A program made the position numbers and the translations under genes. From the NCBI GenBank assembly GCA_024404115.1, contig JAKSQM010000002.1:124001-188000 (forward strand): a DNA stretch of 64,000 nucleotides, in the 5' to 3' direction. Position 1 is the stretch's first letter. Every line of letters starts with the position of its first letter. Source of the stretch: Clostridia bacterium. GTDB taxonomy: Bacteria; Bacillota; Clostridia; Oscillospirales; Acutalibacteraceae. Under the pieces are notes generated by a model. That model ran no database searches. It was not told the origin of the DNA and saw only the letters and a program-made list of their open reading frames with translations. Positions 51,820 to 64,000 of this stretch are shown in pieces.

Positions 51820-51825
51820 AGCAAT

Positions 51826-51941
51826 ATCTTCGGGGCGGGGTGCAATTCCCCACCGGCGGTGTGAGTTTAACTTGAGCCCGCGAGCGAAAGCTGATCTGGT
51901 GAGATTCCAGAGCCGACAGTAAAGTCTGGATGGAAGAAGAT
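51826..51941 (+). promoter_or_regulatory. FMN riboswitch (RFN element)
   Basis: The RFN consensus is nearly complete: ATCTTCGGGGCGGGGTG at the start, CCCACCGGCGGT, AGCCCGCGAGC, CTGATCTGGTGAGATTCC, GCCGACAGT and GGAAGAAGAT closing P1. It precedes ribU, so flavin excess would stop uptake. Confidence 0.96.
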
Positions 51942-51955
51942 TATATGTTTAATCT

Positions 51956-52642: not shown

Positions 52643-52740
52643 TTCCTTATTGAGAGTAGCTGAGGGACTGGCCCTGTGAAGCTCGGCAACCTGCATAGGC
52701 AAGGTGCTAATTCCTGCGGTATTAACCGAAAAATAAGGTG
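52643..52740 (+). promoter_or_regulatory. SAM-I riboswitch (S-box)
   Basis: P1 CCTTAT/ATAAGG (52645-52650 with 52734-52739) encloses the S-box core: GAGAGTAGCTGAGGGACTGG, CCCTGTGAAGCTCGGCAACC and GGTGCTAATTCC. It precedes metK. Confidence 0.96.
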
Positions 52741-54070: not shown

Positions 54071-55975
54071 TTAAAGAATATCTTCGAGGAACTTGATGTA
54101 AAGACCGCCCTGAACTGTTCTGTGCTTAAAGCCAATCATAATTGATGTGTTGGTGTCATACCAGTCTGTCATGGGAACTCGTGAATTTGAAACATTGTAT
54201 GCGTCCCAAAGAGGAGTGATGAACTTTTCAAATTCATCATCAGAGGGTGCGAGGCATGCTGTCCAAACAAGCCAGTCAGATTTTGTGTAAGCCTTGCGGC
54301 TGTCAAGAGGCATACCGTAATAGTTGATATGCTTGCAGTTGTTAAGATATTCTGATGAGAGAACATATGGTGAGAAAAGATTTGTGTGCCAGAACTTATC
54401 CCAGACAATGTTATATTTCATGCTGAATGTGCCGGGCTTGTCGAATGCAAGGCGGAAGCTGCCGTCTTTATTAGCGGCACGCTTAACCCAGCTGTCTGCC
54501 ATATCCTTTGCAATCTTCATGTATTTGTCGGCATCCTCTGCCTTACCCTGCATTTTGAGGATAATTGAGTAACCAGCGATACCCATAATTGCTTTAAGTG
54601 AAAGGTTGCAGTTGTGAGCCATATGACCCGCAAAGTCGTCTGTACAAAGCTGATTTTCGGGGTCTTCACCGTATTTGATGAGGTATTTAACCCATCTGTC
54701 AAGCTGAGCCATATATCTGTCTGCGAAGTCTGTGTTTTTATCAACCATAGCAATGTTTGCCATAAGGATGAGCATATTGCCACATTCCTCAACAGGCATC
54801 TGCTTAGTTTTGTATTCTTCAAGAGTCTTTGATTTCCAGCCGTAACGCTGACCGTTTACAACAGGATATGTGCCAACATCGTGGGGAGCAAAGTCAAATA
54901 CCCATTCGTCAGATTCATCATATTTGAAAATTGGAACAAGCATACCCTTGAGAAGCTCAGTGTTGTAAAGAAGGAAGAACGGTGATGATGGATATGTAAC
55001 ATCAACTGTTGCTGCACAGCCGTTGCTGAAGCATTCTTTTGAAATATAAACAAGCTCGCCCTCGTCTGTTACTGCAAGCTTATGAGCGGCAAGAATCTGA
55101 CGGTACGCAAGTGAAATAATCTCTGCATATTTAATACCGCTGGAGCGTTTGCCCTGCTTATAAATATCATAAGAAACCTTGTTGCACTTAATGAGCATTT
55201 CTTCGCTCTCTTCGAGTGCCTCTTTCATAGCCTCTTCAATTGTAAGACCTTTGGTGTGCCAATAAGCCTTAATGTGCTTTTTGAAATATTCAAGAGAATA
55301 AATATCGTCATATGCAAAGAGAATGTCATATACTTTTGATGCTTCGCAAGCGAACTCTGCTGAAACGAAATTCATATTTTCTTCATCTTTGAAGCTTGAA
55401 ATGCTGCTGTCAGCTGGTGGGCAAAGGTAGAAATAACCCCAGTCAATGCGAAGGTCATCGCCGAATTTGCCAAGGATTTCCTGCTTCTTGCTGCCCATTT
55501 TAACAGCATTGATACCGTCTTTAATCTGAACAGTTTCGATTGTTACTTCGTCATCCCCTGCTTTATCAAGGCAAATCTGCTCAGAAACGGAAAGCTTAAC
55601 GCTGACCTTGTGAGCTACACCGTCAACATTTTCAAATTTAACTTTCATATAAGAAACAGGTCTTGAAAGGCGGTATAAATCATCTGTGAAAAGAGGTGTG
55701 TAGAATTTAACATTGAGAGTGATTTTTTCGTTAACAAAATCATACTCAGTAACAAGAGCGGTAACATCCATAGCAGCCTGAGTGATAACAGGATACTTTC
55801 TGTTGTTGCCCATAAAGCGGAAATCTTCGCCGTCAACTGTTACAATACCCTCAATGATGTTTTCAGCACCAGTCCAGTGAACTGTTTCTTCGCTGTATAA
55901 TTCATCAGCAGGCGACCATATTGAAAAATATGGGTCAACTGTAATAAGCGGAACTGCGGGTGGTCTTAATTTCAT
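54071..55975 (-). CDS. Glutaminase-A-like protein (DUF5127/DUF4965/DUF1793 architecture)
   Basis: A 634-residue protein without a signal peptide. It opens with PAVPLITVDPYFSIWS (the N-terminal beta domain typical of GtaA-type proteins), has a middle segment SLAYRQILAAHKLA, and a C-terminal alpha/alpha-barrel with DFAPHDVGTYPVVNGQ, CTDDFAGHMAHNCNLSLKAI and YNIVWDKFWHTNLF. The architecture corresponds to fungal glutaminase A relatives, but bacterial members may be glycosidases. Standalone gene converging on metK. Confidence 0.78.
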   Translation of the reverse strand: MKLRPPAVPLITVDPYFSIWSPADELYSEETVHWTGAENIIEGIVTVDGEDFRFMGNNRKYPVITQAAMDVTALVTEYDFVNEKITLNVKFYTPLFTDDLYRLSRPVSYMKVKFENVDGVAHKVSVKLSVSEQICLDKAGDDEVTIETVQIKDGINAVKMGSKKQEILGKFGDDLRIDWGYFYLCPPADSSISSFKDEENMNFVSAEFACEASKVYDILFAYDDIYSLEYFKKHIKAYWHTKGLTIEEAMKEALEESEEMLIKCNKVSYDIYKQGKRSSGIKYAEIISLAYRQILAAHKLAVTDEGELVYISKECFSNGCAATVDVTYPSSPFFLLYNTELLKGMLVPIFKYDESDEWVFDFAPHDVGTYPVVNGQRYGWKSKTLEEYKTKQMPVEECGNMLILMANIAMVDKNTDFADRYMAQLDRWVKYLIKYGEDPENQLCTDDFAGHMAHNCNLSLKAIMGIAGYSIILKMQGKAEDADKYMKIAKDMADSWVKRAANKDGSFRLAFDKPGTFSMKYNIVWDKFWHTNLFSPYVLSSEYLNNCKHINYYGMPLDSRKAYTKSDWLVWTACLAPSDDEFEKFITPLWDAYNVSNSRVPMTDWYDTNTSIMIGFKHRTVQGGLYIKFLEDIL

Positions 55976-56043: not shown

Positions 56044-56071
56044 AAAAAAACCTGCTGAAAAATACAGCAGG
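56044..56071 (-). terminator. Terminator of the T-box branched-chain operon
   Basis: Perfect stem CCTGCTG/CAGCAGG (56051-56057 with 56065-56071), followed on the minus strand by seven T residues. Confidence 0.9.
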
Positions 56072-56088
56072 CTTTTGTTTATTTTGAA

Positions 56089-56625
56089 TTAGCCTTCAAG
56101 GTTAAGACCGCACTCAATTGCTTTAAGGTTCATATCAAGAAGATTTGCTTTTCTTGCAGAAACAACCTTTTTAAGTGTGGATTCAACATTGTTTGTGCTA
56201 ACTGCTCCGCTCTCTTTGATGAACTTACCAACCATAATCATATTTGCAAGGGTGGGAAGTCCAATATCATTTGCAAGACCAGTTGCAGGAACATAGAATA
56301 CCTTAACATCTGTGCGCTTGATTTTGCGTTCAATAAGTGTTGAGTCAACAAAAATCATACCACCCGGAACAACTGCATCCTCATATTTATCAAGTGAGGG
56401 AAGATTCATAGCAATAAGAATGTCTGGCTTTGAAACGATGGGAGAACCAACGGGCTCGTCGCTTAAAATAACACTGCAGTTTGCTGTGCCGCCACGCATT
56501 TCGGGGCCGTATGATGGAAGCCAGCTAAGCTGTCTGCCTTCAAGAAGTCCGTTATATGCAATGAATTTGCCTGCAAAGAGAACGCCCTGACCGCCGAAAC
56601 CTGCAATAAGTAACTGTGTAGTCAT
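56089..56625 (-). CDS. 2-oxoacid:ferredoxin oxidoreductase, gamma subunit
   Basis: A 178-residue subunit with the family start LIAGFGGQGVLFAGK and PSYGPEMRGGTANC. It carries the CoA-side domain of the 2-ketoisovalerate/2-oxoglutarate-type enzyme. Last gene of the operon, 1 nt after the beta subunit. The set alpha-beta-gamma plus ferredoxin is complete in this operon. Confidence 0.93.
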   Translation of the reverse strand: MTTQLLIAGFGGQGVLFAGKFIAYNGLLEGRQLSWLPSYGPEMRGGTANCSVILSDEPVGSPIVSKPDILIAMNLPSLDKYEDAVVPGGMIFVDSTLIERKIKRTDVKVFYVPATGLANDIGLPTLANMIMVGKFIKESGAVSTNNVESTLKKVVSARKANLLDMNLKAIECGLNLEG

Positions 56626-56626
56626 A

Positions 56627-57376
56627 TTATTTGTCCTCCTTTGCGCTTCTGTCTTTATAAACTCCTAAAGGATAATAAGGAATCATCTTATCCTCAACCC
56701 ACTGAAGAGCTGCGTCGGGAGTCATACCCCAGTTTGTGGGGCAAGAAGAAACAACCTCAATAAGTGAGAAGCCTTTGCCGTTAATCTGATTTTCAAAAGC
56801 TTTCTGAATAGCTTTCTGTGCAGCCTTAACATTTTTAACATTATTAACTGCAACACGGGCAATGTATTCGGGACCGTCAAGAGTTGCGAGCATTTCGCTG
56901 ACCTTAACGGGATAGCCTGCTGTTGTAACATCTCTGCCGTAAGGTGAAGTCTGTGTAACCTGACCAGGAAGTGATGTGGGAGCCATCTGACCGCCTGTCA
57001 TACCGTAAATTGCATTGTTTACAAAAATAACAGTGATGTTTTCGTTTCTTGTAGCGGCGTGAACTGTTTCAGCCATACCGATTGAAGCAAGGTCGCCGTC
57101 GCCCTGATATGTGAAAATAACATTTTCAGGCATTGAGCGCTTAAGACCTGTTGCAACAGCAGGTGCTCTGCCGTGTGCAGCCTCAACCATATCACAAGTG
57201 AAATAATTATATGCCATAACAGCGCAGCCAACAGGAGCAACGCCGATTGTTTTGCCCTCAATACCAAGGTTATCAATTGCCTGTGCAACAAGTCTGTGAA
57301 TTATACCGTGTGTGCAGCCAGGGCAATAATGAAGCTGAGCGTCTGTAAGGCTCTTTGGTTTTTCAAATACTATCAT
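56627..57376 (-). CDS. 2-oxoacid:ferredoxin oxidoreductase, beta subunit (TPP-binding)
   Basis: A 249-residue subunit that binds thiamine diphosphate: HYCPGCTHGIIHRL, YQGDGDLASIGMAE (Mg/TPP motif GDGD), NNAIYGMTGGQMAPTS and SSCPTNWG. It overlaps the alpha subunit by one base. With VorB-type alpha it forms the catalytic core that interconverts acyl-CoA plus CO2 and 2-oxoacid using ferredoxin. Confidence 0.95.
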   Translation of the reverse strand: MIVFEKPKSLTDAQLHYCPGCTHGIIHRLVAQAIDNLGIEGKTIGVAPVGCAVMAYNYFTCDMVEAAHGRAPAVATGLKRSMPENVIFTYQGDGDLASIGMAETVHAATRNENITVIFVNNAIYGMTGGQMAPTSLPGQVTQTSPYGRDVTTAGYPVKVSEMLATLDGPEYIARVAVNNVKNVKAAQKAIQKAFENQINGKGFSLIEVVSSCPTNWGMTPDAALQWVEDKMIPYYPLGVYKDRSAKEDK

Positions 57377-58440
57377 CAGTCGTTACCTCCTGCAAGTTTT
57401 TTGATTGATTCAAGCACCTGCTCTGGTGAAGGAATCATACCGCCAACACGGTTGCAAAGCTCAACCTTTTTCTTGCACTCTGTTGCAAGTTTGATGTCCT
57501 CAATCATCTGACCCATTGAAAGCTCTACGCTTAAAAAGCCCTTAACTTTGTCAGCAGCTTCTGCAAGAGGTTTCTTGGGGAATGGCCATACTGTGATGGG
57601 GCGAATCATGCCGACCTTGATGCCCTCTTTTCTTGCGGCGATAACAGCGTTCTTTGAAACACGGGCAGCAATACCGAAAGCAACAACGCAGTAATCTGCA
57701 TCATCCATCATAAATGACTCGTATCTTGCTTCGTTTTCTTCGATTGTTTTATATCTTTCATAACGCTCGAAGTTTGTCTTTTCAAGCTCTTCGGGGTCAA
57801 GATAAAGTGAATTGATAATGTTGTGCTGACGCTTTTTGCCGGTGCCAGTAACTGCCCAAGGCTTCTCATAAACCTTGATGTCATCTGGCTCGGGGAGCTC
57901 AACAGGCTCCATCATCTGACCCATTGTGCCGTCTGCAAGAAGCATAGCAGGCATACGGTATTTATCTGCAAGGTCAAATGCAAGGATAGTCATATCAGCC
58001 ATTTCCTGAACTGATGCGGGAGTGAGAACGATAAGGTGATAATCGCCATGTCCGCCGCCCTTTGTAGCCTGAAAATAATCTGACTGAGAGGGCTGGATGC
58101 CTCCAAGACCAGGGCCGCCACGCTGAACATTAACAATAAGTGCAGGGAGGTCTGAACCTGCGATGTATGAGATACCCTCCTGTTTAAGTGAAACTCCTGG
58201 GCTTGATGATGATGTCATAACTCTTTTGCCTGAGCCAGAAACACCGTAAACCATATTGATAGCAGAAATTTCACTTTCAGCCTGAAGGAATGTACCGCCG
58301 ATTTTGGGCATTCTTTTTGCCATATATGCGGCAATTTCAGTCTGAGGAGTGATAGGATAGCCGAAGTAATGCTTACAGCCAGCTCTTATAGCAGCCTCAG
58401 CAATTGCTTCGTTGCCTTTCATTAAAACTTTTTCAGCCAT
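57376..58440 (-). CDS. vorB: 2-ketoisovalerate-type ferredoxin oxidoreductase, alpha subunit (VorB-like)
   Basis: A 354-residue subunit: LMKGNEAIAEAAIRAGC, FGYPITPQTE, the VMTSSSSPGVSLKQEG segment, VQRGGPGLGG and a C-terminal SMGQMIEDI. This is the VorB/KorA arrangement with separate gamma, closest by motif to enzymes acting on branched 2-oxoacids. ATG 58440 has GAGGTG 6 nt upstream; an upstream ATG lies inside the ferredoxin gene. Substrate is inferred from the adjacent aminotransferase and T-box. Confidence 0.88.
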   Translation of the reverse strand: MAEKVLMKGNEAIAEAAIRAGCKHYFGYPITPQTEIAAYMAKRMPKIGGTFLQAESEISAINMVYGVSGSGKRVMTSSSSPGVSLKQEGISYIAGSDLPALIVNVQRGGPGLGGIQPSQSDYFQATKGGGHGDYHLIVLTPASVQEMADMTILAFDLADKYRMPAMLLADGTMGQMMEPVELPEPDDIKVYEKPWAVTGTGKKRQHNIINSLYLDPEELEKTNFERYERYKTIEENEARYESFMMDDADYCVVAFGIAARVSKNAVIAARKEGIKVGMIRPITVWPFPKKPLAEAADKVKGFLSVELSMGQMIEDIKLATECKKKVELCNRVGGMIPSPEQVLESIKKLAGGND

Positions 58441-58450
58441 TTCGAACACC

Positions 58451-58657
58451 TCACTTTTCAACTGTTATAACGCAATCGGGGCACATAGTTGCGCAGAAAG
58501 CACAAGCAATGCACTTATCCTGATCGGTCATTTCTGCGGGAGAATGTCCCTTTTTGTTTATCTTTTCTTTAGCAATTCTGATAATGCCTTTGGGGCAGGC
58601 AGAAACACAAAGTCCGCAACCCTTGCATATATCAGTGTCAAAAGTAACTTTTGCCAT
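58451..58657 (-). CDS. Ferredoxin-like 4Fe-4S delta subunit
   Basis: A 68-residue protein with two [4Fe-4S] motifs, CKGCGLCVSACP and CIACAFCATMCP, the electron-transfer subunit of the oxidoreductase. It lies between the P-loop ATPase and the alpha subunit. Confidence 0.95.
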   Translation of the reverse strand: MAKVTFDTDICKGCGLCVSACPKGIIRIAKEKINKKGHSPAEMTDQDKCIACAFCATMCPDCVITVEK

Positions 58658-58672
58658 TGCAATTCTCCTGTC

Positions 58673-59323
58673 TTAATAATATTTTTTCTGCAATTTAAGC
58701 ATAAACTTATTATCGCAGTCAACATCCTCAAAAATCTTTTCGCTGACCGTAGTCATCACAACGGGAAGTGAAGTCATTTCGCTGAGATTCTGTGCAAGAG
58801 GGATAGTCCTCTCAACATCCTCTGCGGTTGTTTCTTCACCGAGATTTGAGTTGTTTATAATTCCTGTAAACTTAATGCCTGCCGCCTGCTGAATTTCGTA
58901 GAAAACCTCCATAGCTTCCTCTGCATTCCTTGTAAGAGGGCGATAGAAATTCACCACAAAAAACATATCGTAGTTATTCTCTTCAAGAATATACGGCGTG
59001 AATCTGCCGAGGGCGTACGCTCCCCTGTCATCACCGCCAATGTCAAGAATAACATGCTTGTCATTTCTCATAACAAGTCCGTAGGTTTCAGCAGGGAGAG
59101 ACGGCAAATCAACATTTGTGCCTGCAAAGGGAAGCGCAACAAGCTCTATCCCCGCCTGCTCAAGTTCTTTTTGGCTGTCTTTCGTTCTGAAATACGGATT
59201 GACTATATCAAGGTCGGCAATGCTGACATTAAGCCCCTGACTTTTTAAGTCAAAGGCATAATTCAGCGCAACATTTGTTTTACCGCTTCCGTAATGTCCT
59301 AAAAAAAGGTTTACTCGCTTCAT
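58673..59323 (-). CDS. P-loop ATPase of the CobQ/MinD-like type in the VOR operon
   Basis: A 216-residue ATPase with GHYGSGKTNVALNYA (P-loop), a SIADLDIVNPYFR motif, and LDIGGDDRGAYALGR in place of the usual switch II. It resembles the deviant-Walker SIMIBI group (MinD, CobB, NifH relatives). The ATG overlaps the ilvE stop by 4 nt. Its position immediately before the iron-sulfur subunit suggests a part in cofactor loading or activation, but there is no direct evidence. Confidence 0.8.
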   Translation of the reverse strand: MKRVNLFLGHYGSGKTNVALNYAFDLKSQGLNVSIADLDIVNPYFRTKDSQKELEQAGIELVALPFAGTNVDLPSLPAETYGLVMRNDKHVILDIGGDDRGAYALGRFTPYILEENNYDMFFVVNFYRPLTRNAEEAMEVFYEIQQAAGIKFTGIINNSNLGEETTAEDVERTIPLAQNLSEMTSLPVVMTTVSEKIFEDVDCDNKFMLKLQKKYY

Positions 59324-60423
59324 TTGTTCTCAACTTTTACATCAAGAGGATATGTCCAACCCATGAAGTCTTCAACAACACCTGTCTGCATACCATAAAG
59401 TGTGTCATAAAGCTTCTGAGCAACAGGACCAACGTTACCGCCGTTTACAGTGTAATCTGTGCCGTTGTAGTTAAGGCAGCCAATGGGAGAAATAACAGCA
59501 GCTGTACCGCTTGCGAAAATCTCTTTAAGTGAGCCGTCTTTTGATGCTGCAACGATTTCGTCAATTGAAAGCTTGCCTTCTCTTACCTTAATGCCAAAAT
59601 GCTTGAGGAGCTGGATAACTGAATTTCTTGTGATACCGGGGAGGATTGTGCCGCTGTCAAGAGAAGCAGTGATAACCTCATCGTTAATCATAAAGAATGC
59701 GTTTGATGTGCCGATTTCTTCGACATACTTGTGCTCAGCAGCGTCAAGCCAAAGAACATCTTTGCAGTCATATTTCATAGCGTCCTGAGAAGCTCTCATA
59801 CCGCCGCCGTAGTTACCGCCAACCTTAGCGTAACCTGTGCCGCCCTGAGCAGCTCTGATATATTTATCCTGAACGAAGATTCTTGTAGCTGAAAGACCGC
59901 CGTCATTAGCTGCATAATAAGAACCTGTGGGGCTGAGGATGATCATAAATCTATAATGTTTTGCAGGAAGAACAGAGAATGAAACTTCATCGCCAAAAAG
60001 GAAAGGACGGATGTAAAGTGATGTGCCCGGAGCTGTGGGAATCCAATCAGCGTCTTCTTTGATAACTGCTTCAACAGCTGCAACAAGAAGGTCATCGGGA
60101 AGATAAGGCATGCACATTCTTTCGCAGGTTGAAACCATTCTTTTAACGTTCATGTCAGGTCTGAAAAGCTGAATAACGCCATCGGGACGGCGGTATGCTT
60201 TCATACCCTCAAACATCATCTGAGCATAGTGAAGAACGCATGATGCAGGCTCAATGAGAATTGGCTCATGAGGAACAACTCTGCCGTCATGCCAGCCCTG
60301 ACCCTCGTCATAATCCATAACGAACATATGGTCTGTGAAATACTTTGCAAAGCCAAGCTTTGTTTCGTCTTCGGGGCGTTTCTTAGGATTCTTTGTTCTT
60401 GTTACTGGAAATTCATATTTCAT
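59320..60423 (-). CDS. ilvE: Branched-chain amino acid aminotransferase
   Basis: A 367-residue class IV PLP aminotransferase interconverting Val/Leu/Ile with their 2-oxoacids. YAQMMFEGMKAYRRPDG, the PLP-lysine region GYAKVGGNYGGG and EIGTSNAFFM are typical of the longer BCAT group. ATG 60423 has AAAGGAG upstream. It sits between the amidase and the ATPase of the T-box operon, so valine synthesis or breakdown is the probable job. Confidence 0.93.
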   Translation of the reverse strand: MKYEFPVTRTKNPKKRPEDETKLGFAKYFTDHMFVMDYDEGQGWHDGRVVPHEPILIEPASCVLHYAQMMFEGMKAYRRPDGVIQLFRPDMNVKRMVSTCERMCMPYLPDDLLVAAVEAVIKEDADWIPTAPGTSLYIRPFLFGDEVSFSVLPAKHYRFMIILSPTGSYYAANDGGLSATRIFVQDKYIRAAQGGTGYAKVGGNYGGGMRASQDAMKYDCKDVLWLDAAEHKYVEEIGTSNAFFMINDEVITASLDSGTILPGITRNSVIQLLKHFGIKVREGKLSIDEIVAASKDGSLKEIFASGTAAVISPIGCLNYNGTDYTVNGGNVGPVAQKLYDTLYGMQTGVVEDFMGWTYPLDVKVENK

Positions 60424-60442
60424 TTCTATACACTCCTTTAAA

Positions 60443-61228
60443 TTATATATCATATATTTCTGCCTGTCTGTCGGCAAAAACATTGATGGTCTCTCTGATA
60501 TTTTTTATGATTGATGTGTCGCAGTCAGCGGAGATTATATCCTCACTCTCCCCTGCTTTTGCAAGGGTACTGCCCCACGGGTCATAAATAACTGAATTGC
60601 CGCCAAAAACAGTGTCATAAGCTGTGCCGCATGAGTTACAGCAGGCTAAGAACATCTGATTTTCTATGGCTCTTGCTTTGGTTAAGGTGAGCAGGTGGTC
60701 TTTTCTGATTAAGGGCCACTGTGAAACAACAAACAGGAAGTCAAGTCCTTTAAGGCTCATTGTTCTTGTAAGCTCGGGGAATCTTACATCATAGCAGATG
60801 ATAACTCCGCACTGGTTGCCGTCAAGTGTGAATCGGCAGATTTTGTTGCCTTTTTCATAAAAGTTATGCTCGCCCATTGGTGTGAAAAGATGTGATTTAT
60901 CGTATTCGCCGACACATTCACCGTTTCTATTGAAAATATAAGCGGTGTTGTAAATCTTGCCGTCCTTAACATTTGAAACACTGCCTGCAACGATATTTAC
61001 GTTATATTCTTTTGCAAGTGAGCCGATTTCGGCCTTGACCTTTTCGCCGTTATTATCGCAAAATGATGCGAGGTTTTCTTTTGGGAAAAAGCCAGTGTTC
61101 CATGTTTCGGGAAGAACGATAACATCTGTTCCGCTTTCAACTGCGCTTTTAATAAGCTCTTTTGCCTTTTCAAAGTTTATCTGAGGCTCAGCTAAAAGCA
61201 TATCCATCTGAACACATGATATTTTCAT
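60443..61228 (-). CDS. Carbon-nitrogen hydrolase (nitrilase superfamily, omega-amidase-like)
   Basis: A 261-residue nitrilase-fold amidase. The Glu-Lys-Cys triad is visible in VIVLPETWNTGF, EYDKSHLFTP and GVIICYDVRFPEL. No signal peptide; family members hydrolyse 2-oxoglutaramate and similar omega-amides. Second gene of the operon, 12 nt after the synthetase. A role in recycling the amide product of a transamination or in hydrolysing a branched-chain amide can be proposed but not shown. Confidence 0.9.
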   Translation of the reverse strand: MKISCVQMDMLLAEPQINFEKAKELIKSAVESGTDVIVLPETWNTGFFPKENLASFCDNNGEKVKAEIGSLAKEYNVNIVAGSVSNVKDGKIYNTAYIFNRNGECVGEYDKSHLFTPMGEHNFYEKGNKICRFTLDGNQCGVIICYDVRFPELTRTMSLKGLDFLFVVSQWPLIRKDHLLTLTKARAIENQMFLACCNSCGTAYDTVFGGNSVIYDPWGSTLAKAGESEDIISADCDTSIIKNIRETINVFADRQAEIYDI

Positions 61229-61240
61229 TATATCACTTCC

Positions 61241-63538
61241 TTAAAGCAGATTTCTCTGAATTTTACCGCTGACTGTCTTTGGAAGTTCATCCTTAAATAC
61301 AACAAGTCTTGGGTATTTATAAGGTGCGGTGTGCTCCTTAACATATGTCTGAATTTCTTTCTTAAGCTCTTCTGTAGGCTCTGTGCCCTTTGTAAGAACA
61401 ATGCTTGCCTTAACAATCTGTCCTCTTACTTCGTCGGGAGCAGCTGAAACGCCACATTCAAGAACATAAGGAAGCTCCATAATAACACTTTCGATTTCGA
61501 ACGGTCCAATTCTGTAGCCAGATGACTTGATAACATCATCAACTCGACCAACATACCAGTAGAATCCGTCTTCGTCCATCCACGCACTGTCGCCTGTGTG
61601 GTAATAGCCGTCATGCCAAACCTCTTTGGTCTTTGCTTCATCTCCGTAATAGCCAGTGAAGAGTCCGCAGGGTGCGCCGTCTTTAACATTAACAACGATT
61701 TCACCAGTTTCACCAACAGGAACATCCTTGCCCTCTGCATCAACAAGCTTAACATCATAAATGGGAGCAGGTTTGCCCATTGAGCCGATTTTGTGTGATG
61801 CACCTTTAAGGTTACCGATAATCATTGTGCTTTCTGACTGACCGAAGCCTTCAAGAATCTGAAGTCCTGTAGCCTTTTCAAATTGACGGTAAACCTCGGG
61901 GTTAAGTGCCTCACCTGCTGTTGTCATATGACGAACAGATGAGAAATCGTATTTTGAAATATCCTGCTTAACCATCATACGAAGCATTGTGGGCGGTGCG
62001 CAGAATGTTGTTATGCGATATTTTGCAAACATGGGAAGAATGTCTGCGGCATCGAATCTGTCAAAATCATAAACGAATGTTGCAGCTTCGCAAAGCCACT
62101 GACCGTAAAGCTTGCCCCACATTGCCTTTGCCCAGCCTGTATCTGAAATTGTGAAGTGAAGTCCGTCGGGCTCAACTGTGTGCCAGTATTTTGCTGTATG
62201 GAAATGACCGAGGGCGTATTTGTAGTTATGAGCAGCGATTTTGGGATAACCAGATGTGCCTGATGTGAAGAACATAAGCATAAGGTCATCACCGCCAGGT
62301 GAATTTTCATCTCTGTAATAATGTGCGCTGTAAAGAGGATATTCATCATCAAAGCTGCGCCATCCATCACGCTCGCCGTTTACAATGATTTTATTTATAA
62401 GTGAGGGGCATTTTTCAGCGGCTTTATCTACCTCATTGGCTGTTTCGCCGTCTGCTGTGCAGATAATTGTGCTGATACCTGCTGAATTGAAGCGGTATTC
62501 AAAATCGTGATCCTGAAGCTGATTAACAGCAGGGATTGCAATTGCGCCAAGCTTGTTAAGACCGAGCATTGCAAACCAGAACTGATAATGACGCTTGAGA
62601 ACAAGCATAACCTTGTCGCCCTTTTTGATGCCAAGAGATTTAAAGTAGTTTGCGCACTGGTTTGATGCACGCTTCATATCACGGAAAGTGAATCTGCGCT
62701 CTGTTTTATCCTTTGAAATGTGAAGCATCGCAAGCTTTTCGGGCTTTGTTGTGGCAAGTGCATCAACAACATCAAAAGCAAAGTTGAAGTTTTCTGTATT
62801 TTTGAATTTGATTGATGTGGGAGTACCTTTTTCGTTTTCTTCAACATCAACAAAATTGTTATAAACACGTTCTGTTGTGTCTTTCTTGTATTCATCAGCA
62901 GCTTCTTTGTAATCAATAGCTGTCTGAGGTGAAAGCTCTGGAATAGGCTCGCCTGTTGGGTTAAGAACGATAGCGTAGAAAAGGCAATCCTCGCCATCAA
63001 CAGCAATCATGCCGTGAGGTGATGAACTGTCGTAATAAATGCTGTCGCCAGGGCCTAAAACCTCTTTATGAGAACCAACCTGAACCTTTAAATGACCTGT
63101 GATAACAATATCACATTCCTGACCTGCGTGAGTTGTCAGTTCAATATCTCTGTGCTCTGCCTCTTCACTGTATGTGCAGTTAACATAAAGTGGTTCAGCA
63201 ATTCTTTTCTGAAAAGCAGACGCAAGGTTGTAATAAACCATTCCGTGAGCCTGCTCAATACGCTGACCTTTGCCAGCTCTTGTAAGTGTGTAGGACTTAA
63301 GGGTGGGGCTGACACCTTCGATAATATCTGTAACATCAACGCCAAAAGCCAGTGCGCAACGGTAAATAAACGCAAAGTTAAGGTCGCTTTCGCCGTTTTC
63401 GCATCTGAGATATTCCTCAGCGGTTACATCTGTTTTCTGTGCCATTTCTTCCGCAGTGAATCGTGTGATTTCACGAAGTTCACGGATACGGGCTGCCATT
63501 TCTTTGATTTTGAAATCGAGTCCTGTCATTTGTGCCAT
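61241..63538 (-). CDS. XRE-cupin-AMP-dependent acyl-CoA synthetase fusion
   Basis: A 765-residue, three-part protein. Residues about 10-70: XRE-type helix-turn-helix (RIRELREITRFTAEEMAQ, YLRCENGESDLNF). About 75-215: cupin (GQECDIVITGHLKVQVG, GDSIYYDSSSPHGM). From about 265: acyl-CoA synthetase of the ANL superfamily with TSGTSGYPK, EGFGQSES, YHTGDSAWMDEDG and the catalytic lysine in PKTVSGKIQR. ATG 63538 has GGAGAG 6 nt upstream. First gene after the T-box. A short- or branched-chain fatty acid is the likely substrate. Confidence 0.9.
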   Translation of the reverse strand: MAQMTGLDFKIKEMAARIRELREITRFTAEEMAQKTDVTAEEYLRCENGESDLNFAFIYRCALAFGVDVTDIIEGVSPTLKSYTLTRAGKGQRIEQAHGMVYYNLASAFQKRIAEPLYVNCTYSEEAEHRDIELTTHAGQECDIVITGHLKVQVGSHKEVLGPGDSIYYDSSSPHGMIAVDGEDCLFYAIVLNPTGEPIPELSPQTAIDYKEAADEYKKDTTERVYNNFVDVEENEKGTPTSIKFKNTENFNFAFDVVDALATTKPEKLAMLHISKDKTERRFTFRDMKRASNQCANYFKSLGIKKGDKVMLVLKRHYQFWFAMLGLNKLGAIAIPAVNQLQDHDFEYRFNSAGISTIICTADGETANEVDKAAEKCPSLINKIIVNGERDGWRSFDDEYPLYSAHYYRDENSPGGDDLMLMFFTSGTSGYPKIAAHNYKYALGHFHTAKYWHTVEPDGLHFTISDTGWAKAMWGKLYGQWLCEAATFVYDFDRFDAADILPMFAKYRITTFCAPPTMLRMMVKQDISKYDFSSVRHMTTAGEALNPEVYRQFEKATGLQILEGFGQSESTMIIGNLKGASHKIGSMGKPAPIYDVKLVDAEGKDVPVGETGEIVVNVKDGAPCGLFTGYYGDEAKTKEVWHDGYYHTGDSAWMDEDGFYWYVGRVDDVIKSSGYRIGPFEIESVIMELPYVLECGVSAAPDEVRGQIVKASIVLTKGTEPTEELKKEIQTYVKEHTAPYKYPRLVVFKDELPKTVSGKIQRNLL

Positions 63539-63566
63539 GATAATCTCTCCGTTCCAGGGCGGCAAA

Positions 63567-63838
63567 TAAAAAACCCGCCCCAAAGTTTAATGACTTTGAG
63601 ACGAGCATAATTTATACCCGCGGTACCACTCAAATTGCGCTATGCGCCACTCAGGCTCAACCAAGCCTTATGCTTTTACGCAGCAGTACGGGGAGGTTCT
63701 ACTTGTGAAAACTTTCTTCCTCCCAGCTCAGAAGCTACAAACACAAAGCACTTTTCAGCGGCTCGCACCAAACGCCGCCTCTCTGATGAAAAACATCTTT
63801 GTGAACTCTTCGTCAACGCCTTTAATATCTAAAGTCTA
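63567..63838 (-). promoter_or_regulatory. T-box riboswitch (probable tRNA-Val specifier GUA)
   Basis: The minus-strand leader contains the T-box motif TGGTACCGCG at 63628-63619, whose variable base T matches a discriminator A. Stem I is recognisable: GAAGAG, helix CACAAAG/CTTTGTG (63803-63797 with 63748-63742), the AGAGG bulge and GGTGCGAGCC loop. Between CTTTGTG and CTTC the loop reads TTTGTAG; by position GTA (63738-63736) is the specifier, i.e. valine. A Phe reading (TTT) cannot be fully excluded. Confidence 0.9.
63568..63602 (-). terminator. T-box terminator
   Basis: Minus-strand stem GTCTCAAAGT/ACTTTGGGGC (63602-63593 with 63586-63577, two G-T pairs), then GGGTTTTTT. Confidence 0.88.
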
Positions 63839-63861
63839 TCAAACTTATTATAAAAAGTCAA
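63833..63861 (-). promoter_or_regulatory. Promoter of the T-box operon
   Basis: Minus strand TTGACT (63861-63856), 17-nt spacer, TAGACT (63838-63833). Confidence 0.7.
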
Positions 63862-63915: not shown

Positions 63916-64000
63916 TTAAAGTTTATTTCTCTGAATCTTTCCGCTGATTGTCTTTGGAAGCTCGTCCTTAAACTCAACTATACGGGGATATTTGTAAGGA
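63916..64000 (-). CDS. AMP-dependent acyl-CoA synthetase, C-terminal end only
   Basis: Partial: only the last 27 codons are inside the window. They read PYKYPRIVEFKDELPK, then TISGKIQRN, almost identical to the end of the synthetase at 61241-63538, with the ANL catalytic lysine in SGKIQR. A tandem paralog of that enzyme therefore lies upstream; whether it also carries XRE and cupin domains cannot be seen. No terminator is obvious between its stop and the T-box promoter. Confidence 0.88.
   Translation of the reverse strand, partial: PYKYPRIVEFKDELPKTISGKIQRNKL

Follow-up and report, generated by a model that had tools for sequence, protein, structure and literature searches.

A tightly packed operon headed by a T-box leader lies at positions 63861-56046, on the minus strand, of a 64,000-nt stretch of DNA from a Clostridia bacterium (C12:124001-188000). 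This stretch is referred to below as the window, and all coordinates are given in it unless another locus is named. The source genome (2.43 Mb in 44 contigs, 83.8% complete) is labelled G000, while the other genomes and the loci that were fetched carry G and L numbers, respectively. The operon consists of a T-box, a leader terminator, eight packed genes and an end terminator, with intergenic gaps of -4 to 19 bases across all eight genes; both the T-box and the eight-gene arrangement were confirmed. An initial annotation had proposed that these genes convert a branched short-chain acid through its acyl-coenzyme A (acyl-CoA) and 2-oxoacid into an amino acid. The features, in the order of transcription and with the end of an upstream gene placed last, are as follows.

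63833..63861, minus strand: promoter-like site TTGACT-17-TAGACT, 9/12 matches
63594..63825, minus strand: T-box leader RF00230 (Rfam 101.9 bits, gathering score 93, E 2.5e-21)
63736..63738, minus strand: specifier codon GUA (Val), from the Rfam alignment and a spacing rule
63573..63606, minus strand: leader terminator, 14 pairs, whose 5' arm overlaps the antiterminator as its 3' arm
61241..63538, minus strand: XRE-cupin/AMP-forming acyl-CoA ligase fusion, 765 aa, likely start ATG 63538, putatively acting on isobutyrate
60443..61228, minus strand: carbon-nitrogen hydrolase (amidase), CN_hydrolase, accessory, by a Pfam-type domain match
59320..60423, minus strand: branched-chain aminotransferase, IlvE-II (TIGR01123, 359 bits, cut-off 250; NF009897, 447 bits, cut-off 307)
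58673..59323, minus strand: P-loop ATPase (CbiA/ParA-like), by a CbiA-like domain match; the window copy has no NCBIfam match
58451..58657, minus strand: ferredoxin-like delta subunit with two 4Fe-4S, by family match
57376..58440, minus strand: VorB-type alpha subunit (NF005507, 568 bits, cut-off 399)
56627..57376, minus strand: thiamine pyrophosphate (TPP)-binding beta subunit, TPP_enzyme_C, below every NCBIfam cut-off
56089..56625, minus strand: gamma subunit, POR domain, below every NCBIfam cut-off
56046..56076, minus strand: end terminator, a terminator-like stem of 12 pairs
63916..64000, minus strand: 3' end of an upstream paralogous ligase (Ile unit), whose body and AUC T-box lie beyond the window

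The T-box operon and its specifier

The covariance search bore out the T-box leader and the probable valine specifier GTA of the initial annotation, for which a codon outside the branched-chain set would have counted as a refutation. The specifier was read by a rule of codon, one base, five bases and GAGC, the spacing of which was fixed before the controls were read. In five other T-boxes found by a genome-wide search of G000, the specifier matched the amino acid of the downstream gene in 5/5 cases (AAC-asnS, GCC-alaS, TGC-cysE-cysS, TTC-pheS and ACC-thrS, genes named by NCBIfam), although these controls were read by eye with the downstream genes already visible, and the Cys T-box carries CAGC in place of GAGC. 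The window leader contains a terminator that competes with the antiterminator, as a T-box demands, with fold energies of -24.1 kcal/mol over 81 bases for the terminator and -13.0 kcal/mol over 52 bases for the antiterminator alone. The best reading is that the operon is derepressed by uncharged tRNA-Val, a response predicted from the leader sequence.

The eight tightly spaced genes and their families agreed with the initial annotation, except that its plain synthetase proved to be the XRE-cupin/AMP-ligase fusion. All parts of a VorB-type oxidoreductase were present, namely an alpha subunit above the subfamily cut-off, a TPP-binding beta subunit, a POR gamma subunit and a 4Fe-4S delta subunit. 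The end of the operon at a terminator was likewise recovered as the stem at 56076-56046 (13 terminator-like stems found versus 6.9 in shuffles). As for the single promoter proposed, a promoter-like site is present, but its 9/12 matches do not rise above what is frequent in shuffled sequence, such sites being common by chance (23 found versus 15.2 in shuffles). Adjoining the operon and transcribed in the same direction is a gene for a glutaminase A-like protein (GtaA_6_Hairpin, DUF5127, DUF4964) at 54071-55975 (minus strand).

Codons, ligases and neighbouring units in relatives

Relatives were collected by a search with the alpha subunit, and the best 80 loci among the matches listed were compared; nearly all came from rumen or gut metagenome-assembled genomes, and many were incomplete. 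Ferredoxin, alpha and beta genes occurred in 80/80 loci and the P-loop ATPase in 77/80, the remaining three loci beginning at most 152 bases from the ferredoxin gene. A branched-chain aminotransferase gene was found within 8 kb of the alpha gene in 61 loci. The amidase, which the initial annotation had listed among the operon genes, occurred in only 10/80 loci (some incomplete) and is thus dispensable and outside the core. The P-loop ATPase weakly matches the iron-transfer family NUBPL in 38/43 members, and its role might, as a guess, be to load Fe-S clusters. The operon also occurs on contigs labelled Spirochaetales/Spirochaetaceae (L014, L015 and L016), in L016 together with an Ile T-box, through either inter-phylum transfer or misbinning.

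A T-box was found before 88 of the 106 fusion-type ligase genes in the relatives, and in every one the specifier was for Ile or Val (ATC 45, GTA 39, GTC 3 and GTG 1). This automated reading used a pattern that demanded no particular codon, and found no T-box motif for the other 18 genes; motif matches in L047 lay inside coding sequence and were excluded from the counts. The occurrence of synonymous Val codons suggests that it is the amino acid that is conserved. Ile-specified and Val-specified ligases were both present in 33/80 loci. A phylogenetic tree of 101 ligases placed all 45 Ile-specified sequences in one clade of 49 rows (SH-aLRT 100) that included no Val-specified row, its remaining four rows having no T-box found. 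The Val-specified ligases, including that of the window, were located outside this clade, yet did not form a single clade themselves.

The best NCBIfam match of the window ligase was MbcS (NF047394), at 434.5 bits far below the cut-off of 850; it spans residues 266-778 of the open reading frame as given and leaves the N-terminal XRE-cupin part outside. MbcS is described as acting selectively on 2-methylbutyrate and isobutyrate and only poorly on isovalerate (PMC10026030). The closest solved relative was 3ETC (MacsMa, 625 bits), which prefers 2-methylbutyrate and in which Trp259 is critical for substrate binding (PMC10455477). Only 16 positions separated Val- from Ile-specified ligases (at least 85% in each), 14 of them in the XRE-cupin part (the N-terminal 199 residues of the fusion protein) and two in the ligase. 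The XRE-cupin parts of the two types may respond to different ligands or recognise different binding sites. Within the ligase, residue 470 of the DTGW[A/G]K motif was Ala in 44/44 Val-specified and Gly in 44/45 Ile-specified sequences, and Gly in 3ETC. A family sample, described below, gave Ala in 22/22 Val-type ligases (window copy included) and Gly in 7/8 Ile-type ones; the exception, L108, is probably from the same genome as L039. Residue 470 stands four residues before the Trp matching MacsMa Trp259 (numbering matched via the YHTGD motif, residues 431-435). The bulkier residue fits the smaller acid if this position, picked post hoc, lines the substrate pocket. The ligase next to the operon genes is assigned, as a prediction, to isobutyrate and valine.

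Two further units lie beyond the window. Just upstream of the operon and past the window end is a second fusion ligase (L002:1917-4181, minus strand), a paralogue of the window ligase, whose T-box has the specifier AUC and scores 92.7 bits, just below the gathering score of 93. About 15 kb further, a third unit (L002:13440-17573, minus strand) comprises a CUC (Leu) T-box of 100.6 bits, a LeuA-like protein and a TIM-barrel/AMP-ligase fusion. In the relatives, 19 of 28 LeuA-like genes had a T-box and 19/19 read Leu (CTC 17, CTG 2), the 17 including that of L036, read by eye as CTC. All 25 full-length LeuA-like proteins lacked the two histidines that make up the HxH metal motif in E. coli LeuA, and 24 lacked the Asp of LRDGEQ; LeuA_dimer was present in both of those scanned. 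The T-boxes CTC in L055 (L055:9003) and ATC in L058 (L058:9013) directly precede P-loop/VorB-type oxidoreductase genes with no fusion ligase between, which ties the oxidoreductase itself to Leu and Ile. Together, the units outside the window suggest a like organisation for isoleucine and leucine, each with its own T-box.

Loss of the classical ilv pathway

In G000, none of ilvB, ilvC and ilvD was found over its family cut-off in the 83.8% of the genome estimated to be present, and hence no sign of the complete independent ilv pathway that the initial annotation had named as part of a refuting case. Owing to the incompleteness of G000, the argument from absence rests also on relatives. Fifty of the 80 genomes were surveyed and grouped by unit content, with G000 included in the ilvB and ilvD searches. 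ilvC was over the cut-off in 8/50 relatives, and one further genome each came from ilvD and from ilvB. Where the Val unit was present, ilvC occurred in 2/38 genomes, versus 6/9 of those with the Ile unit only (Fisher p 1.9e-4), and 0/3 of those with neither. The corresponding counts were 2/38, 7/9 and 0/3 for ilvB and 3/38, 6/9 and 0/3 for ilvD.

The family sample comprised 120 genomes, 119 of them at least 90% complete and the exception being the window's own. ilvC was over the cut-off in 74/120. The ligase was matched at E 1e-100 in 67/120, and 30 of these were classified (G000 and 29 others); for L091, L098 and L113 the specifiers, assigned by eye, were GTA, GTA and ATC. By best ligase, ilvC occurred in 3/21 Val-type, 6/8 Ile-type and 65/90 remaining genomes, which include 37 with unclassified ligases (p 1.4e-6 for 3/21 versus 65/90). 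G049, the sole genome of the same genus in this sample, has ilvC, and neither the ligase nor a VorB over the cut-off was found in it. VorB was also considered as a marker of ilv loss and was rejected, since 39 of the 68 family genomes with VorB over the cut-off hold ilvC too (hand count). Predicted ilv loss is better marked by the T-box ligase unit.

Other routes to isoleucine and leucine were looked for as well. No citramalate synthase was over the cut-off in 51 genomes, a cut-off reached by only 5/14 controls. Threonine deaminase (TIGR01127) exceeded its strict cut-off (5/14 controls) in 3/18 genomes examined, namely both of those with Val unit, Ile unit and ilvC and one of the six that combine ilvC with the Ile unit only. 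Its presence, at that cut-off, in only 1/6 Ile-only ilvC genomes is consistent with these genomes requiring 2-methylbutyrate to make isoleucine. leuB was over its strict cut-off in 4/51 genomes (9/14 controls), so the other genomes seem unlikely to make leucine through LeuABCD.

Elsewhere in the window, a flavin mononucleotide (FMN) riboswitch (51822-51945, plus strand) precedes a membrane-protein-like open reading frame, perhaps a riboflavin transporter, and an S-adenosylmethionine (SAM) riboswitch (52644-52739, plus strand) precedes a gene resembling metK; both genes were named by eye.

A candidate route from branched acids to amino acids

We estimate a probability of about 0.85 that the operon makes valine from gut-derived isobutyrate, its substrates, direction and tRNA response being inferred from sequence. 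This route appears to have replaced the usual valine pathway. The ligase would spend ATP to convert isobutyrate into isobutyryl-CoA. In the next step isobutyryl-CoA and CO2 would be joined by the VorB-type oxidoreductase and its ferredoxin subunit, at the expense of reduced ferredoxin, to give 2-oxoisovalerate, from which the aminotransferase would form valine. Uncharged tRNA-Val is predicted to pair with the leader at the GUA specifier and at the T-box sequence, so that the antiterminator forms and the genes are transcribed; plentiful valine would lead to termination in the leader. Isoleucine would probably be made from 2-methylbutyrate with this oxidoreductase and aminotransferase as well, and leucine perhaps from isovalerate, after activation of the two acids by separate ligases under the AUC and CUC T-boxes. 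The route outlined by the initial annotation, from acid to acyl-CoA to 2-oxoacid to amino acid, is supported by the Val specifier, the gene families and the ilv loss.

Its biosynthetic direction also found support, although the initial annotation had drawn it from T-box control, which by itself is a weaker basis than the ilv loss in Val-unit genomes together with the AMP-forming ligase. The combination of AMP-forming ligase, T-box and missing ilv genes points to synthesis. The converse is improbable, namely a catabolic flow in which fermented amino acids yield branched 2-oxoacids, the oxidoreductase turns these into acyl-CoA by oxidation, and the ligase deals with the acids. VorB-type enzymes are reversible and occur in peptide fermenters, but a T-box raises expression during amino acid shortage, contrary to the need of a catabolic operon. 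An AMP-forming ligase costs ATP, where energy-conserving fermenters use ADP-forming enzymes or a phosphotransacylase-kinase pair, and the ilv genes are missing from Val-unit genomes.

A role of the ligase mainly in priming branched membrane fatty acids, as for MbcS of Staphylococcus aureus, with the rest of the operon secondary, appears slightly less probable again. MbcS is the best NCBIfam match and is described as feeding FabH (PMC10026030). However, the gene arrangement implies co-transcription of the ligase with the oxidoreductase and aminotransferase genes, the specifier codons name amino acids rather than lipids, and the XRE-cupin N-terminus falls outside the MbcS match. A minor contribution of the ligase to lipid priming may nonetheless exist. 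Least probable of all is an oxidoreductase acting on another 2-oxoacid (e.g. 2-oxoglutarate or an aryl substrate) within a loose gene cluster: the beta and gamma subunits score below the cut-offs of the generic 2-oxoacid families that they match, and the alpha chains nearest among solved structures belong to a generic 2-keto acid enzyme and a 2-oxoglutarate enzyme, but the alpha subunit exceeds the VorB subfamily cut-off, the genes are spaced by those -4 to 19 bases, and the CTC and ATC T-boxes of L055 and L058 stand directly before such oxidoreductase genes.

Several points weigh against valine synthesis from isobutyrate. With the beta and gamma subunits under curated cut-offs and the ligase far below that of MbcS, family membership leaves the substrate unsettled. 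A single ilv cluster could be missing from the incomplete, 44-contig assembly of G000. The relatives are not independent samples and their kinship was uncorrected, and the two genome sets share at least four genomes (G105/L037, G109/L053, G017/L039 and G021/L052). The Val unit and ilvC occur together in the 2/38 and 3/21 genomes counted above, and VorB alone is no marker, given the VorB genomes that retain ilvC.

Taking the three units together, we lean, with less confidence than for the valine route, towards a codon-addressed supply in bacteria living on branched acids released by others. Three ligases, each controlled by a T-box with the codon of the amino acid made from its acid (GUA/GUC for isobutyrate and Val, AUC for 2-methylbutyrate and Ile, CUC/CUG for isovalerate and Leu), together with a shared CO2-fixing oxidoreductase and aminotransferase, would replace the ilv pathway. 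In the Leu unit, the LeuA homologue without metal-binding histidines, which keeps its leucine-binding domain, is perhaps a feedback sensor, and the XRE-cupin part of the other two ligases may act likewise.

T-box regulated ilv/leu operons are known as a class in Firmicutes. They share with the present operon a tRNA-sensing leader, a branched-chain specifier and genes making that amino acid; here, however, acid activation and reductive carboxylation stand in place of the acetohydroxyacid pathway, and there is one T-box per ligase. The four-subunit set, TPP domain and ferredoxin resemble the VorB-type 2-oxoacid:ferredoxin oxidoreductase (NF005507), from which the P-loop ATPase partner and the T-box control differ. 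Rumen bacteria have been described to convert isobutyrate, 2-methylbutyrate and isovalerate into Val, Ile and Leu (Allison, Robinson and others, cited in PMC7356843), with isobutyrate as the Val precursor (PMC7356843). The net chemistry of that reductive carboxylation is the same as proposed here; as presented in this source, the rumen work consists of physiology and culture labelling, whereas the present analysis supplies candidate genes, their order and their control, as read from sequence. The S. aureus enzyme MbcS is alike in being an AMP-forming ligase for isobutyrate and 2-methylbutyrate, but serves fatty acid priming, while the window ligase reaches half the MbcS cut-off, is fused to XRE-cupin and has oxidoreductase and aminotransferase genes downstream. 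MacsMa of Methanosarcina acetivorans (PMC10455477), the closest solved ligase, has Gly at the codon-tracking position, where Val-specified ligases carry Ala, and lacks a fused sensor domain.

No account of T-box control of acyl-CoA ligase or VorB-type oxidoreductase genes was found in the literature searched, and the main text of two T-box surveys (PMC2494555 and PMC3766115) contains no mention of oxidoreductase, CoA/acyl-CoA or isobutyrate. The chemistry and the regulator class are thus known, while their pairing, with codons naming the substrate of each ligase, seems new, a negative literature search being no proof of novelty.

The need of rumen and gut bacteria for branched short-chain acids has been known for decades. 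If the proposed scheme holds, the T-box codon would directly indicate the probable substrate of each ligase, with no assay required, and an old nutritional question would become testable gene by gene. Genomes could be sorted into those requiring isobutyrate and those requiring 2-methylbutyrate only, with a bearing on isoacid feeding and on cross-feeding. Annotation pipelines seeking ilvBCD would label such genomes as valine auxotrophs.

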